DNA of 45,127 bases, taken from the IMG/VR virus record IMGVR_UViG_3300037808_001512, positions 1 through 45,127 of that record; one strand, given 5' to 3'. Under the pieces are notes generated by a model. The model was not told the origin of the DNA, searched no databases, and worked only from the letters and a program-made list of their open reading frames with translations. Every line of letters starts with the position of its first letter. Position 1 is the first letter of the stretch. Source of the stretch: a virus. The position numbers and the translations under genes are program-made. Shown one piece after another: positions 647 to 45,127 of this stretch.

Positions 647-1789
647 TTAAGCTGCTTCTTTTTGTTCGAACGTTCGACTTAACAGTTCTAAAAGCTGCTT
701 ACATCGCTCTGGGGCGCCCTGCCAGTTAACTCTTGCTAACTCGCGGTAACCTTCCCCCGATGCATCCGCCTTTTTAAGTGCTGTATCTGCTGCAGATACC
801 TTTCTAAGAAAGTTGTGTTCATTAAGTCCTAAATCTGCCGCAGTTTTGCCATCAGCCCAAAGGCGGGCCTGAAGCCACATGGACAGCAGCAAGTTGGAAA
901 GGTCTCCTGCCGAGCTATCGCCTGGGGGCTTAAAGTGTCCGAGTGCCTTCTTATGGAAGCTCATTGCTGAATCTAACCATGTTAGTTCATCTCCATAGGC
1001 AGACATTGACCTATCCGAAAACGTTTCCTGTGCTAACTCAAACGTATCGATACCCTTTTTATAGTATTCATCTAAGTTGCTCTTCGCCTTCTTTGGTGTC
1101 TTGGCCGGATTGTCCTTTAGTTCTCTTGCATAGACAAGAAACTTGACAATATGCTCTGAATCAGTCATTCTGCTACGCGCGTTTTCTTTGAAACATGAGC
1201 CCATGGCCCCATAATAGGCGCCCTTTGTGCCGGATCGGGTGCGCACCCATTCTGCGATATACGTCTGCTCTGAGTTTCGGACCTCTTGTGGGTTCAGTGA
1301 TATACCTGCGTTCAGGCGACGAAAGATAGTTGGCAGTTTCTCAAAGGCCAAGTTGCTATATTCCTGAATGACAATGGTTGCGTCCAGGAAAGCGAACCGG
1401 GCAGCAGGGGCTAGATCTTTGAAAAAGCTGTTTTTGTATTCGTATGTTTCTCCACGATCTACAATGGTGCCGGTGAAAGTAATTATGTTGTTATAAAAAC
1501 TCCATAAAGTTTCAGCCCTGTTCTGACCATCCATCGAGATAAAGCGGACCTTAAAACCATCCAAGATAACATCGTAGTTCTTGGAGGGGTGCGACTCAGC
1601 ACACGACATCACATCTGCCAAAACAATCGGTGTGGTGGCGAAGTTATCAAAGACGCTTTCAAGATACTTGATCTGCGTTTTACGGTTCCATACACTATTT
1701 CGTTGGAACCATTTTGGTACCAAGATCTTGCTATAAATATCGAGCAGTGCTTGGACTGTTGTTGTTTTTGTATTAAAATTCGTTGACAT
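647..1789 (-). CDS. DUF262 / GmrSD-N-like (ParB-fold) protein
   Basis: A 380-aa protein. I place the start at ATG 1789, not the upstream in-frame ATG at 1816, because AAAGGAG sits just before it and the upstream ATG lies inside a hairpin. The DUF262 landmarks are present in order: Q29-R30 in KWFQRNSVW, DGQNR at 87-91 (family DGQQR), and RLNAGISLNPQEVRN at 158-172 (family RLNxGxxLxxQExRN). Family members are ParB/Srx-fold NTP-dependent nucleases or regulators and form the GmrS part of type IV restriction enzymes. No HNH (GmrD) motif is visible in the C-terminal half, so this is a stand-alone GmrS-like unit. It lies next to the R-M operon. A role in excluding competing phages or attacking host DNA is inference. 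Confidence 0.75.
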   Translation of the reverse strand: MSTNFNTKTTTVQALLDIYSKILVPKWFQRNSVWNRKTQIKYLESVFDNFATTPIVLADVMSCAESHPSKNYDVILDGFKVRFISMDGQNRAETLWSFYNNIITFTGTIVDRGETYEYKNSFFKDLAPAARFAFLDATIVIQEYSNLAFEKLPTIFRRLNAGISLNPQEVRNSEQTYIAEWVRTRSGTKGAYYGAMGSCFKENARSRMTDSEHIVKFLVYARELKDNPAKTPKKAKSNLDEYYKKGIDTFELAQETFSDRSMSAYGDELTWLDSAMSFHKKALGHFKPPGDSSAGDLSNLLLSMWLQARLWADGKTAADLGLNEHNFLRKVSAADTALKKADASGEGYRELARVNWQGAPERCKQLLELLSRTFEQKEAA

Positions 1790-1810
1790 ATTTTCTCCTT
1801 TTGTAATATG

Positions 1811-1846
1811 ATTCAAAGCTATCTGTTTTAGAAGATAGCTTTGAAT
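1811..1846 (-). promoter_or_regulatory. perfect 14-bp inverted repeat upstream of the DUF262 gene
   Basis: ATTCAAAGCTATCT (1811-1824) and its exact reverse complement (1833-1846) enclose an 8-base loop. The right arm in RNA ends only a few bases before the AAAGGAG of the DUF262 gene. There is no U-tract after it, so it is unlikely to be a terminator. As DNA it could be a dimeric repressor operator. As RNA it would be a very stable leader stem that could hide or expose the ribosome binding site. Confidence 0.6.
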
Positions 1847-2649: not shown

Positions 2650-3417
2650 TTATTTGTTCGACATCAGTTCGTCAAACGCTCGGTCCACATCATTTTTATT
2701 GCCATTGCTATAACGTGTTGTTTCCTTCGAACGCGACTCGGCGCTTCCATCGCCGGCTAATTGCTCGTCTAAGATTGCATTGATCTGCTCTGGAGTTTGA
2801 CGCTCGAATAGAGAGTCAATGTCTGGCATGCTATCAAGGAGGGCAGCGATAGCGTCCGTGTCCTCCAAGAGCGAGGAAGTATTTCGACGCATCTTTAGGT
2901 TTGTTTGGGGGTATGCACCAGCCTGTGTAGGCTTAGTGTATGTGAGAGCGATGTCAGTGCCCTCTAGAGTATCGGTGATATCACCGTAATCGGGATCTAG
3001 AATATATCCCAGAAGGTTCTCATAGGCACGCTTACCGTAGCCGTAGATCTTGATTCCTTCATCTTCTCGGCCTCGCACCACCACTGGTGAAAAGAACCGG
3101 TTTCGGACAAAGAGTGACTTAGCAAGCTTCTTGCTCTCTTCATCGTTGGTGTTTGTTCCCTCATGCCATAACGACGAGGCAAACTCGCAAATCGGGCAGT
3201 CATCGCCAAAGTTGCGCTTGGGGCACACAATGCCTCCACGGTGATTTCCAACATTATAGTGGAAATACATCTCCTTAAGGGGGTCACCATCAGGCGCGGG
3301 CACGATTCGGATATCTTGATCTCCTTCATCGGGCTTAAACCATACTGATTGTTCCCTTGTTCCCTCACCACGTAGTGTGGCAAGCTTCTTTCGCATTAGT
3401 TCCATGTTAATTGACAT
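2650..3417 (-). CDS. 32: single-stranded DNA-binding protein, T4 gp32-like
   Basis: A 255-aa protein with the gp32 layout. A short N-terminal arm (MSINMELMRKKLATLRG) would carry cooperative contacts. A zinc-binding stretch follows with H59, C65, C74 and C77 (VCPKRNFGDDCPICEF), equivalent to the His-Cys3 site of T4 gp32. An OB-fold core runs to about residue 190. The C-terminal tail includes acidic patches (DVDRAFDELMSNK) of the kind that recruit replication partners. The GGAG site before ATG 3417 is strong. It would coat single-stranded DNA during replication and recombination and lies next to the polymerase and FtsZ-like genes. Slightly shorter than T4 gp32 (301 aa). Confidence 0.88.
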   Translation of the reverse strand: MSINMELMRKKLATLRGEGTREQSVWFKPDEGDQDIRIVPAPDGDPLKEMYFHYNVGNHRGGIVCPKRNFGDDCPICEFASSLWHEGTNTNDEESKKLAKSLFVRNRFFSPVVVRGREDEGIKIYGYGKRAYENLLGYILDPDYGDITDTLEGTDIALTYTKPTQAGAYPQTNLKMRRNTSSLLEDTDAIAALLDSMPDIDSLFERQTPEQINAILDEQLAGDGSAESRSKETTRYSNGNKNDVDRAFDELMSNK

Positions 3418-3484: not shown

Positions 3485-4342
3485 TTAATCTACTTTGTCA
3501 AGAGTTATTTGTTGTTGTATCGTGTTTGTGTGGGCCACGACGTACCCAAAATCTTTGTGAGGGGTCTCATAAATTGCATATGAAATCTTGCGAAATGCAT
3601 TTGACGGTTTCTTCTTAAGAATGTCAACCAGTTTCCTGTGCAATGTGCCCTCCGTTGCTAACCTTTCTTCATTCACACATATATAATAACACAGTTCACG
3701 CTCGGTGTCAAGTTGAAATAACCAGTTTTCTTGAAGATTTTTTGGGTCTAGGACTGCTATGCTGCGGATTCTATTGATTTCTGATGGTTTTGCAACTTGC
3801 CCAATTTCGGGCTCTGAATGAGTGAAATAGTTAAGATAGTGAACAGCGGAGAAGATCGCAGTGTTGAGAGTATTGTAATAGCTCTTGATGGGTGCGTCTC
3901 CTAGAGTCTTCTCGATCTCAAGATTGGAAAATAGGGTTAATGAGCTAAAGAGTCCCGAACGAGCGTATTCTTGTAGTACGCCAAAAGTCATATTCTCAAT
4001 AAGCAGTCGTTCGCCGTTAACAAGCTCGATATCTGGTTTAATATAAAAAACGTCTACCTTCTTATCTTGGATCTGTTCTAGAATCCCAAGAGAGTAGTTC
4101 GAACTGTATGATGTCCCAATAATAAACACCTGAACGTGATCTTTTAGATCTTTAAAAAACGTCTTAAGATTTGGGACGTTATCTTCATATTCTTCTGGTC
4201 TTTCAAACTTCTTTAGCTTTCTCTTTTGCTTGCTATTTTTTTCAAAGGTGTCATTCAGTTCATACACATCATATTGTGATATGTCGCCAAACTTCTTAGC
4301 AATAGCAGAGGCTCCGGTGCCGATACCCACAATAGAAATCAT
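3485..4342 (-). CDS. FtsZ/tubulin-like GTPase-fold protein (divergent)
   Basis: A 285-aa protein starting at an ATG that overlaps the polymerase stop (ATGA). The N-terminus MISIVGIGTGASAIAKKF matches the first strand and T1 nucleotide loop of FtsZ/TubZ proteins. Strand 2 follows (YDVYELN). At 70-92 a hydrophobic strand leads into GTSYSSNYSLGILEQI, placed where FtsZ has GGGTGTG. Then come VDVFYIKPDIELVNGERLLIEN and a segment ending in LTLFSN, the order of FtsZ S5, H5 and the xIVIPN strand. The T4 glycines are largely replaced, so GTP binding may be altered. Phage tubulins (PhuZ, TubZ) centre or segregate phage DNA. Coupling to the polymerase suggests a replication role, by inference. A Rossmann-fold protein of another kind is the main alternative. 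Confidence 0.58.
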   Translation of the reverse strand: MISIVGIGTGASAIAKKFGDISQYDVYELNDTFEKNSKQKRKLKKFERPEEYEDNVPNLKTFFKDLKDHVQVFIIGTSYSSNYSLGILEQIQDKKVDVFYIKPDIELVNGERLLIENMTFGVLQEYARSGLFSSLTLFSNLEIEKTLGDAPIKSYYNTLNTAIFSAVHYLNYFTHSEPEIGQVAKPSEINRIRSIAVLDPKNLQENWLFQLDTERELCYYICVNEERLATEGTLHRKLVDILKKKPSNAFRKISYAIYETPHKDFGYVVAHTNTIQQQITLDKVD

Positions 4343-5523
4343 AAAACAAGGTTATCCAAGTCATAGTAGTTCTTTCCCGCCTTTAAATTGACTCCATACT
4401 TCCCAAGTCGGTTTTTAGCAAATGCATCTTTAATCTCAACAATCATCTCTCTTTCCTCATCAGCAAAATCAATAACCACCTCGTCATGAACGATATGTGA
4501 TATAAATGACTTTTTGCCCTCCAGCATTTTGTCTATTGCAATTGCTCTTTCAATCACCAAGTCTGCGGTTGTGCTCTGAACTAAGTAATTCAACGCCTTC
4601 CAGTCGTTGACTGCAATGTGCCTTCCAAATACAGTAGTAATATATTCACCGTCATAGTATCTGTCAAGTACTTTTTTGCGATCATAGTGATTAGTTTTAA
4701 GATCTGGCGAGTCTGGGTTGTATAGCCACGCGAAAAACATAGTTTTTGCCTCTTCTCTATGCATGTCTGGGTTTTTAAAAACATTAACGATATTCCAATT
4801 ATGAATGTCGTCTTCGGGCTGATGTTGCTCAGAAAGCGCCAGCACGGTGCGCGCCTCCGCACCGTTATAGTCCATGGATATAAACCAGTCATTATATGGC
4901 TTTATAAGGCGCCTCAGTTCCCTTTTCATAGTTAAGATAGGGAAAGACCCACATTGTGTTGTAAGACGCCCTGTGACGGTGCCGAAGAGGTTATAATTAA
5001 TATAGGGCGCGCCAGACATTATCTTCTTTGAGCCATCGCGTAGTTTTGTGCTTGTGAATAGGCTGCGGCAGTCTGAACTATCGAGTTTTAAGTCCTGATA
5101 CTTTATCTTGTAAAGTAGTTTTTCTGCTTCCACGAGATATTCATAGTTCGGTGGCTTTTCGTTGTTTTCAAATATGTGTGAAGTGATTTGGTTCTTAATA
5201 TCGCAAAAAGAAACCAAACTATCGTGTGGCACCAGATCGAAAAAACAATGATTCCGCAAGTTTATCTTAGCAATATCAAAAGACTTTTTGTATGCAGTCA
5301 TCCTTTTTGATACTTTATCCCATTCGTCCTTCAGGTGTTCTGGGCATGCGTCAGACATATTCTTGCCCTGAGTATAGATCCATGCATACTCAATATTATC
5401 GCCATAGTCAGCGCTCGGGCGCCATGTGCGAGTCAGGTTCTTGGGAATGTCTTCAAAGTGAAGAGTACCACCGGCATACACACCAACGCATTCTTGTTTA
5501 TCATCTATAGGTTGAAACAGCAT
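4339..5523 (-). CDS. family A DNA polymerase, polymerase domain only
   Basis: A 394-aa protein with the family A motifs in order: GTVTGRLTT (181-189), motif A DYNGAEAR (218-225, metal-binding Asp218), an O-helix-like stretch REEAKTMFFAWLYN (256-269) with the conserved Arg, Lys and Tyr, QSTTAD near 316-321, and motif C VHDEVV (345-350). The usual RxxxKxxxFGxxYG reads FA..YN here, so both glycines are lost. There is no room for a 5' nuclease or a 3'-5' exonuclease domain, so proofreading would need a separate protein. T4-type phages normally use family B gp43. As I recall, the far-T4 Rhodothermus phage RM378 also has a split family A enzyme. It overlaps both neighbours. Confidence 0.85.
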   Translation of the reverse strand: MLFQPIDDKQECVGVYAGGTLHFEDIPKNLTRTWRPSADYGDNIEYAWIYTQGKNMSDACPEHLKDEWDKVSKRMTAYKKSFDIAKINLRNHCFFDLVPHDSLVSFCDIKNQITSHIFENNEKPPNYEYLVEAEKLLYKIKYQDLKLDSSDCRSLFTSTKLRDGSKKIMSGAPYINYNLFGTVTGRLTTQCGSFPILTMKRELRRLIKPYNDWFISMDYNGAEARTVLALSEQHQPEDDIHNWNIVNVFKNPDMHREEAKTMFFAWLYNPDSPDLKTNHYDRKKVLDRYYDGEYITTVFGRHIAVNDWKALNYLVQSTTADLVIERAIAIDKMLEGKKSFISHIVHDEVVIDFADEEREMIVEIKDAFAKNRLGKYGVNLKAGKNYYDLDNLVL

Positions 5524-6751
5524 TGTCTAGATCTTCCTCACGAAGTGCATCCTCTTTTCTTAATTTAGCACCTTTTCTTCTGTTTGTCAAGGAGCCGCTG
5601 TAATCAAATGTCTTTCCAATGACTCTTTCGAAGGCCATTAGAGCTTTGTCGGGCCTACCGGCGAGGTATACATCCATCGTTTCTTGTATCAATTGCTGTT
5701 TTTCGTTTTTTTGTAATTTTGATTCTTCTTCCATCATCCTAATCTCTAAATACATTTTTAAAAAGTATGTTTCTCCGAACTTTTTCAGAAGATCTCCAGA
5801 TGGATAAACTATTGGCGTTACTAACTTGGTTCTTGTTGAACCATCCTGGCAGTAATCGACTTCAACATAGTTATCGGTCTTTAAAAATTTGTATGCTGTT
5901 TCGATCATCGAAACAAACTGCTTATAATAAGAAATATGAGCAGCATAATATGCATTACCCAAAATGAATTCTGTATTATAGAGAGAGTATTTAGATGCAT
6001 AGCCTACCATCACTTGAGTACCTATATCTGCGATTAGGCGCCAGGGTGCGTGCATATCAACCGAAAACCCATAGCTTCTGCATGCGTTTAAATAGAACTT
6101 CCAGTTTGGGCTATTAACAAAATTATCTATTTTGTCTAAATCCTTTGAAAAGTCTCCAGACGAAATCTCTATCACAAGTCCTGTGGCAGTTATAGGGCAT
6201 AGGCGGTGTTTCATAAAGGCGGGCAGAGTGTATGGAAGGAGTTCTGTCACTGACTGCAGGGCATTTATAAACAATGGTATAAACTCCTCGAAGGTTCTGT
6301 ATCTAATGTTGTCGATCCTAAAAGCGTCTCGAATTCCAAGCAGTAGAGAGTTCATGTGAGCAGCGTACAGCTTTTTCGGGTTTTCATACGCCCTCACTGC
6401 ACGGATGGTACTAAGAAATTTATCTGATGTATTGAGTTTGCCCGCTACACGGCTCTTTTGAAATTGAAGCGATAGGTCAGCGAACGCATCAGCTACAAAA
6501 GGTAGTGCTAATAGTGTTGGGCTTAGACCATCCCCCATTTGAATTGACTTCGGAGTCTGCGACATCTCATTTAAAATTATTGGGACGTAGTTTCTGTCTA
6601 CCCTGCCATAAAGAAACTTTTCCCCACGTGTGAAGTCTTTAAGGTTATCATACCCTGCCGACATTCTTTCTATACTAAATTTGTAATTAAACTTTTTATA
6701 GAACAAGTCAATCGATGACTCGCTGTTCCCAAGTGTGTAATACGTTGACAT
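5501..6751 (-). CDS. unknown 416-aa protein between baseplate and polymerase genes
   Basis: Not recognised. It starts at ATG 6751 (GGAG upstream) with MSTYYTLGNSE and overlaps the polymerase start by 23 bases. It is mostly helical and has many aromatic residues. Notable stretches are DFTRGEKFLYGRVDRNYVPI (40-59), PWRLIADIGTQVMVGYASKY (near 240) and a charged C-terminal third ending RRKGAKLRKEDALREEDLD. No signal peptide, membrane segment or nuclease motif is seen. Its place just after the large baseplate gene favours a virion protein. The coupling to the polymerase keeps a replication role open. Confidence 0.6.
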   Translation of the reverse strand: MSTYYTLGNSESSIDLFYKKFNYKFSIERMSAGYDNLKDFTRGEKFLYGRVDRNYVPIILNEMSQTPKSIQMGDGLSPTLLALPFVADAFADLSLQFQKSRVAGKLNTSDKFLSTIRAVRAYENPKKLYAAHMNSLLLGIRDAFRIDNIRYRTFEEFIPLFINALQSVTELLPYTLPAFMKHRLCPITATGLVIEISSGDFSKDLDKIDNFVNSPNWKFYLNACRSYGFSVDMHAPWRLIADIGTQVMVGYASKYSLYNTEFILGNAYYAAHISYYKQFVSMIETAYKFLKTDNYVEVDYCQDGSTRTKLVTPIVYPSGDLLKKFGETYFLKMYLEIRMMEEESKLQKNEKQQLIQETMDVYLAGRPDKALMAFERVIGKTFDYSGSLTNRRKGAKLRKEDALREEDLDNAVSTYR

Positions 6752-43240: not shown

Positions 43241-43433
43241 TATATCCTCGCAGCCTAGCGATGGCATCGATCACTGTTTGGCCGCCGATATAGATGGCAG
43301 AAATGATCACCCAGTCTTCGCTTGTAACGTGGTTTGTTAAAGCTAACGCTGTCGCCGTTAACCACACCATCAACTTGCGTGATGTCAGTTTAGCCAACCA
43401 TGTATCTATAAATGCGTGTGCTTTTACCATCAT
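43233..43433 (-). CDS. holin-like small membrane protein (66 aa)
   Basis: Two hydrophobic stretches, KLMVWLTATALALTN (20-34) and DWVIISAIYIGGQTVIDAI (40-58), separated by a polar turn, with a basic N-terminal part. The C-terminus RLRGYND is charged. This matches small class II-type phage holins. It starts in an ATGA overlap with the upstream gene. No endolysin is next to it. Confidence 0.6.
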   Translation of the reverse strand: MMVKAHAFIDTWLAKLTSRKLMVWLTATALALTNHVTSEDWVIISAIYIGGQTVIDAIARLRGYND

Positions 43434-43867
43434 TTTTTACCTCTCTTTGCTTTTGATATCTCAACAGCCGCTAGTTGTGCTTGTGCAGCTTTCTTTGTTT
43501 TTGGCTTTTTAGATAGTTCGCGGCCGCTTTTAGATGTTGCTTTATATCCGCCTTTAGCTTTCACTATCTTCTCTTCTATCGCTTCTTCACCTTCTTCAGC
43601 TGTATCGATTTTTGGTACCATATCCATTACCGAGACAAGATCGGGGATTGCAATGTTCCTCACAAAAACAAGACTTACTTTTTGCTCAATTCCTAAGTTC
43701 ATGAAGAACTCGACTGCTCTCGACTGTATTTCTGAATCTGATGCGTTTTCGATGGGGGCGCGTTCGGGCCGCGTTTGAGCAAGGTTTCCTGTTACTCCAC
43801 CAAATTCTATTATTGATTCAAGTTCTTCTTTGATAACCTGTTTGAGTTGGGACTTGGTGATTTTCAT
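43430..43867 (-). CDS. unknown protein with MKITKSQL tag and basic tail (145 aa)
   Basis: The first residues MKITKSQLKQVIKEELESII are the clearest copy of the shared amphipathic tag, with several (L/I)xE sites that a T4-type prohead protease could cut. The middle is acidic. The C-terminus is Lys/Ala-rich (KPKTKKAAQAQLAAVEISKA, then KRGKK), as in DNA-binding internal head proteins. Packaging into the prohead is inference. Confidence 0.5.
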   Translation of the reverse strand: MKITKSQLKQVIKEELESIIEFGGVTGNLAQTRPERAPIENASDSEIQSRAVEFFMNLGIEQKVSLVFVRNIAIPDLVSVMDMVPKIDTAEEGEEAIEEKIVKAKGGYKATSKSGRELSKKPKTKKAAQAQLAAVEISKAKRGKK

Positions 43868-44156: not shown

Positions 44157-44591
44157 TTATTGTTTTCCTTTAAGCTCTTCTAAACCAAACATTCCTTTTA
44201 TCTTGCCCATGGTTGTGAGGGGTTCCGGTCGTTGAGCAACCATGGTTGCCAAGGTTAGCCAAGCCGTGGGGGTTCTGGGATTAGCCATCTTGGTGGCACG
44301 TTGAAGTTGTTGCGCAGTATATTTTCCGCTGTTGATTGCTTCGATTGCTACGGCTACTTCCTCTTGCTGTTCTTGCCAAATCTCATACGGACCCACACCG
44401 TCGCGCTTTCCAAATTTACTTTGGGGTGGCGGTGTGTCTGGATCAAATTTAAAGGAACCAAGCCCAGCAACTATTCTTATAAGCCACGCATCTATGTGCC
44501 CGGATGAATCGGTGCCCTCTTTAATAATATCTGTCTTCTCGTCCATAAAGTAACGAGGATCAAATCTTCTTGTGTTTTTTCTTATAGCCAT
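44157..44591 (-). CDS. unknown protein, RRFDPRYF motif (144 aa)
   Basis: Starts MAIRKNTRRFDPRYFMDEKT, a motif I associate with marine T4-like phage proteins of unknown role. The rest is helical (YTAQQLQRATKMANPRTPTA, GKIKGMFGLEELKG). An ACTATTTA motif lies 70 bases upstream. Confidence 0.5.
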   Translation of the reverse strand: MAIRKNTRRFDPRYFMDEKTDIIKEGTDSSGHIDAWLIRIVAGLGSFKFDPDTPPPQSKFGKRDGVGPYEIWQEQQEEVAVAIEAINSGKYTAQQLQRATKMANPRTPTAWLTLATMVAQRPEPLTTMGKIKGMFGLEELKGKQ

Positions 44592-44660
44592 TATATTATT
44601 CCTTTTAAGTTGCTAATCCATTCATACTTAGTATCGCAATCAGGCGATCATTCGTTACAA

Positions 44661-44974: not shown

Positions 44975-45127
44975 TTCTCTTCTCCATCTTCCCCAAATTC
45001 TTCTTGATACTCTCTCATCATTTCTGAAGGATCGAAAACCTCAAGAGAATCAATAAACCAGCGATATCGTTTATAAACCTCTTTCATCTTGTCAAAAGCA
45101 GGATAAGCAACATTTTCGTCCAAGCAA
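44971..45127 (-). CDS. partial gene at window edge, C-terminal 51 residues
   Basis: An open frame entering from beyond 45127 and ending in a TGA at 44973-44971 that overlaps the next start. The visible end includes YPAFDKMKEVYKRYRWFIDS and an acidic tail (MREYQEEFGEDGEEK). Not recognised. Coupling by ATGA supports it as a real gene. Confidence 0.6.
   Translation of the reverse strand, partial: CLDENVAYPAFDKMKEVYKRYRWFIDSLEVFDPSEMMREYQEEFGEDGEEK

Follow-up and report, generated by a model that had tools for sequence, protein, structure and literature searches.

In the virus record analysed here (45,127 bases, referred to as the window), the gene of Z, a protein that almost certainly belongs to the tubulin/FtsZ superfamily judging by its predicted fold, overlaps the end of the gene of P, a minimal family A DNA polymerase. 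The overlap measures exactly 4 nt in all 195 distinct viral loci where both gene ends could be scored (184 ATGA, 7 TTGA, and 4 GTGA). Our tentative proposal, which we rate slightly below an even chance, is that P has in Z an obligate tubulin partner, co-translated and pseudo-enzymatic.

The P-Z gene pair

The window includes a T4-type terminase gene (PF03237). The P-Z pair and its neighbors are the following:

2650-3417, minus strand, gp32-like single-strand DNA binding protein (SSB; PF08804, E 1.9e-16; synteny)
3485-4342, minus strand, Z, 285-aa ORF with an ATG start, predicted divergent tubulin/FtsZ-fold protein
4339-4342, minus strand, ATGA overlap, the 4 nt shared by the stop of P and the start of Z (from the sequence)
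4339-5523, minus strand, P, 394-aa ORF with an ATG start, minimal family A DNA polymerase (thumb, palm, and fingers)
5501-6751, minus strand, conserved 416-aa protein upstream of P, function not known (ORF and synteny)

Synteny in the relatives shows that the gp32-like SSB gene always comes after Z, and the genes past P-Z-SSB include RecA/UvsX, a 5'-3' exonuclease, and a DnaB helicase. Profile searches with the 416-aa protein gave no confident family match. Elsewhere in the window, the product of 647-1816 (minus strand; 389 aa, containing a DGQNR motif) matches PHROGs of unknown function; a similar gene in a 190-kb relative (G002) shows weak resemblance to the GmrSD_N domain.

The uncultured viruses of the P-Z lineage form a large group, infect microbes, and are mostly marine; the lineage is widespread, with at least 567 matching stretches in a scan of IMG/VR. 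The annotated phage collection gave no match (tblastn of Z against 50,697 phage records, E 10), and one scan of cellular genomes found no relatives. Polymerase matches in gut "phage" contigs were rejected as relatives, the two contigs inspected resembling chromosomal loci of bacterial Pol I, in which a coaE-like gene comes after polA.

The preliminary description of this DNA had noted that Z overlaps the polymerase stop by ATGA; the overlap proved to be invariant, and its retention in 195 of 195 loci implies that the observation is not due to chance. At the control junctions, 15 different spacings were found upstream of P and 25 after Z. In a junction control of 48 loci, two deviated from -4 at P-Z; we attribute one (L050) to an alternative start further upstream and the other (L022) to a break in the reading frame of P. 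Neither P without Z nor Z without P was found where the contig leaves room, in a search for P seeded from P's own family, so that more distant P genes without Z could exist. P and Z have diverged equally fast (mean identity 58% each, distance correlation r 0.79), which would follow from linkage alone. Purifying selection acts on Z (dN 0.09; dS about 2, saturated).

The conserved overlap proves linked expression of P and Z, not binding. Overlaps of 4 nt are common in tightly packed phage genes, and the genes of an SbcCD-like protein and of a second FtsZ-like protein (FtsZ2) overlap alike in G002; the P-Z overlap might accordingly set just the dose and timing of a Z whose role is unrelated to P. 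Such a reading is made unlikely by the constancy of this overlap over 195 loci, in contrast to the drifting flanking junctions, and by P and Z never having been seen apart.

Fold and nucleotide pocket of Z

The AlphaFold2 model of Z (pLDDT 83, pTM 0.85), for which the input alignment consisted of Z and 36 relatives with 57-86% identity, displays the elements S1-H1-S2, S4-T4-H4, S5-T5-H5, and S6-H6-H7 and a C-terminal domain. In VIA-align, CetZ is the best match (VIA Z 22.4, 3.3 Å over 263 residues), CetZ, TubZ, and FtsZ score about 21-22, and the best 50 rows are all tubulin, FtsZ, TubZ, or CetZ, matched across the whole model. Foldseek ranks TubZ and FtsZ first (E about 1e-11; TubZ 1.6e-11), and the clear matches among viral predicted structures are phage FtsZ-like and PhuZ proteins (PhuZ of phage Noxifer, E 1.4e-6). 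The model, Foldseek, and VIA all indicate a two-domain tubulin/FtsZ fold over the full length of Z. These matches bear out the preliminary description, which had proposed an FtsZ/tubulin-like protein from the order of its elements and suggested a structural comparison with TubZ, PhuZ, and FtsZ; an ordinary Rossmann oxidoreductase, the result that would contradict it, is ruled out by the fold (Foldseek, VIA). A T4-type clamp is likewise excluded by the fold. At the level of sequence, Z had no match in Pfam, NCBIfam (including PF00091 and TIGR00065), or PDB and matched a PHROG at chance level only, and its similarity to E. coli FtsZ and to FtsZ2 was not significant either in profile comparison (hhalign P 0.024-0.067) or pairwise (shuffle z -0.4 to 2.6); the assignment of homology rests therefore on structure.

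Motif equivalences were set by the order of secondary-structure elements, not by superposed coordinates, and conservation was scored over 64 clusters at 80% identity:

4307-4327, minus strand, T1-equivalent, residues 6-12, GIGTGAS; G6 and G8 invariant
4094-4117, minus strand, T4-equivalent, residues 76-83, GTSYSSNY; a serine-rich loop replaces the glycine box
3923-3925, minus strand, N140 in the S6-H6 turn, 63/64 clusters; equivalence by element order
3863-3865, minus strand, N160 in H7, 64/64 clusters; equivalence by element order
3770-3817, minus strand, H7-S7 segment, residues 176-191, at the position of T7 and H8 in FtsZ; no helix in the model

Across these clusters, the GxG of T1 is invariant, while its further glycines and the Asn are largely replaced. 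The T4 signature GGGTG(S/T)G is missing, with GxSxSSNY in its place, so that the loss of most T4 glycines, remarked upon earlier for the single sequence, extends to all the clusters; G76, where T4 begins, as well as P103 and D104 in T5, are kept in every one. Asn residues are present at the guanine-contact positions, with equivalence by element order: N140 (guanine/ribose in FtsZ) and N160 (guanine). The T7 motif NxDxx(D/E) was not found in the 64 clusters, and the H7-S7 segment has no invariant acidic residue (E/D at 177 in 55/64, and at 188 in 52/64). Helix H8 is absent from the model, in a region of moderate confidence (pLDDT 68 at residues 181-190).

In the TubZ of phiKZ, T7, which bears the catalytic aspartate, and the base of H8 form the protofilament contact (PMC3678025). 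The loss of both the T4 box and the T7 signature makes canonical assembly-driven hydrolysis by Z implausible, and the loss of NxDxxD, and of H8 in the model, argues against Z being an ordinary dynamic filament. As far as the conserved residues tell, Z may bind a nucleotide, probably without hydrolyzing it in canonical filaments. The strongly conserved residues Q124, Y126, and R128 (after H5) and H168, N171, F173, and G181 (end of H7), for which we know of no tubulin counterpart, are candidate contact sites.

Z shares with CetZ, TubZ, and FtsZ the two-domain fold, the T1 GxG, and the Asn at the S6-H6 and H7 positions, but is shorter (285 aa), lacks the T4 box, a conserved T7 acid, and (in the model) H8, has no significant sequence similarity to them, and does not belong to a division or partition cassette. 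Members of the tubulin superfamily with some functional motifs absent or unidentifiable have already been described, e.g., FtsZl (PMC2875224); however, the FtsZl families were found through the T4 signature, which Z has lost, and their genome context links them to membrane remodeling (PMC2875224), whereas that of Z is a DNA polymerase.

A polymerase without an exonuclease domain

P matches DNA polymerase family A (PF00476, E 1.6e-14). Its AlphaFold2 model (pLDDT 90.6) comprises a Klenow-type polymerase domain with a short N-terminal extension, which compares to the polymerase domain of Bacillus Pol I with a VIA Z of 24.4. The catalytic residues, invariant in the alignment, lie in three motifs:

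4855-4872, minus strand, motif A, D218-E223, DYNGAE
4720-4758, minus strand, O-helix motif, R256...K260...Y268
4480-4488, minus strand, motif C, H346-D347-E348

P matches the Pol I/Klenow type in its polymerase domain and in the invariant residues of motif A, the O-helix, and motif C (HDE), but at 394 aa it is missing the 3'-5' exonuclease domain (AlphaFold2 model, VIA). No gene for DNA_pol_A_exo1 or RNase_T was detected elsewhere in the large relatives, nor PF01612 in eight of them. The T4-type clamp PF02916 was not found in the large relatives by a weak search, in which control genomes barely score. Of the seven large relatives tested, six encode a DnaE-type Pol III alpha, and the five longest (187-196 kb) are all among these six; this implies that P is probably not the main replicase there, and we judge it unlikely as the main polymerase. 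The DNA polymerase of the preliminary description is confirmed as a member of family A and corrected to a minimal, exonuclease-less PolA. We regard P as probably accessory, a Pol I-like enzyme that may act in gap filling or repair.

In G002, the 190-kb relative, the minimal PolA is accompanied by a complete DnaE-type Pol III alpha. This genome also encodes a B12-dependent ribonucleotide reductase and a homologue of PurA, whose score as adenylosuccinate synthase exceeds its score as PurZ:

L234 16573-19998, DnaE
L234 10869-12836, B12-dependent ribonucleotide reductase
L235 770-1753, PurA homologue

A second tubulin-fold protein and the role of Z

Wherever the reach of the contig permits assessment, genomes of the P-Z lineage encode two tubulin-fold proteins. 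The second, FtsZ2, has 380-383 aa in the relatives, scores above the cut-off of Pfam Tubulin (PF00091) and matches TIGR00065 with E 2.8e-13, though under that model's cut-off, and has an intact T4 (GGGGGTGSS) and an acidic T7 (SFDSKDL). No match to it was found in the phage collection searched. Its gene is located as follows:

L142 1042-2184, minus strand, FtsZ2
L143 1297-2448, plus strand, FtsZ2
L144-L223, FtsZ2 in further relatives

In the relatives, the FtsZ2 gene is about 39-45 kb away from Z on the upstream side, and structural genes lie in the interval. P and Z were present in 10/10 FtsZ2-selected contigs of sufficient reach, and FtsZ2 or its end in 6/6 Z-selected contigs that reach far enough upstream; two Z-selected contigs without an FtsZ2 match stop at about 32 and 37 kb. 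In the virus of the window, FtsZ2 would be expected just past position 45127, and this expected location outside the window explains why the preliminary description missed it. The single match within the window, of 12 codons (44608-44643, with no Rfam match), is a repeat copy and not a gene. In G002 the start of FtsZ2 sits within the stop of the SbcCD-like gene, with a 4-nt overlap; this is not so in L142.

Small gene cassettes are arrayed downstream of FtsZ2 in the relatives, several of them preceded by an element of 30-40 nt with a match to the final codons of FtsZ2 (TACTAAGTATGAATGGATTAGCAACAT). The element is present in 4-5 copies per locus, and in one copy in the window. The array looks like recombination-driven gene gain. 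Unrelated small proteins have recurrent N-termini (MKITKxxLKxIIKEEL, MKxLFENWRKHLNE, MAIRKNKKRIDPRYFMDEK), which could be targeting or propeptide tags. These features are found at:

44618-44640 of the window, minus strand, cassette array/element
L223 7104-8494, L211 7127-8540, and L196 7115-9321, cassette array/element
43430-43867 and 44157-44591 of the window, minus strand, small proteins with recurrent N-termini
L223 7056-9420, small proteins with recurrent N-termini

The presence of FtsZ2 together with P-Z in every long-enough contig (10/10 via FtsZ2, 6/6 via Z) raises the question of whether Z could be an end subunit, a γ-tubulin-like cap or seed for FtsZ2 filaments that ties the polymerase or the replicating DNA to the filament. 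FtsZ2 has an intact T4 and an acidic T7, while Z retains much of the nucleotide face without the T7 signature and so could sit at one filament end only. The co-occurrence may, however, reflect only one viral lineage, the two genes are 39-45 kb apart, and the similarity of the two sequences is not significant; we consider this rather unlikely.

A full FtsZ-like fold minus the catalytic T7 signature is also what a dominant-negative subunit would have, and Z might be a decoy of host FtsZ that poisons the host filaments and halts division during infection. Phage inhibitors of FtsZ are known, e.g., Kil of lambda (PMC3961180). The invariant coupling to a DNA polymerase and the site beside the SSB gene suit a DNA role better, and a decoy should retain the interface of the host protein, whereas the similarity of Z to cellular FtsZ is not significant, which renders this role quite unlikely.

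It is equally doubtful that Z forms filaments of its own through an altered interface and positions DNA like PhuZ/TubZ, the link between replication and positioning suggested in the preliminary description. The fold of Z does match TubZ and phage PhuZ, and the phiKZ-type proteins, like Z tubulin-fold proteins of large phages, are thought to center phage material (PMC3678025). Theirs are canonical protofilaments, however, with the known contact needing T7 and the base of H8 (PMC3678025), whereas in Z the T4 box and T7 acids are not conserved and H8 is absent from the model; moreover, Z is tied to a polymerase gene, and the structural genes here are of the T4 type (terminase PF03237). A two-component tubulin system, in which a γ-tubulin-like Z, co-made with the polymerase, ties DNA synthesis to the end of FtsZ2 filaments, is improbable; if true, it would mean that a virus has a cytoskeleton in physical connection with the replication or repair of DNA.

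According to the preferred proposal of Z as the partner of P, ribosomes finishing P would reinitiate on Z at the observed 4-nt overlap, so that P and Z would probably be made in similar amounts and adjacent to each other. Given the motif losses, the pocket of Z, although remodeled, most likely still binds a nucleotide, whereas Z would be unable to build the catalytic interface between T4 and T7 that dynamic filaments have. The gene of Z adjoins that of the gp32-like SSB in a replication gene cluster, and the protein may serve as a non-hydrolyzing, nucleotide-sensing scaffold or accessory subunit of a P complex. The full-length fold, the invariant -4 junction, the constant company of P and Z, the retention of T1, N140, and N160 with the loss of T4 and T7, the replication context, the invariant catalytic residues of P, its missing exonuclease, and the correlated divergence (r 0.79) speak for this partnership; against it, equal divergence is explained by linkage, the overlap is a link of expression only, the model is moderate at T7/H8, and 4-nt overlaps are common.

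Jumbo-phage tubulins have been linked to compartment and segregation functions (PMC7824862; PMC3678025). The part of the literature that was searched contained no report of the Z family, nor of any tubulin fold in a phage that is linked to a polymerase. The function of the phage tubulins known so far is to position DNA or the phage nucleus; a fold of this type without the catalytic signatures, always overlapping a polymerase gene, would be a new use, as a fixed accessory of DNA synthesis. P-Z would be a simple two-gene system for testing a cytoskeletal fold as a possible regulator or anchor of a polymerase, and its invariant overlap hints at an undescribed partnership of a tubulin-type protein and DNA synthesis.
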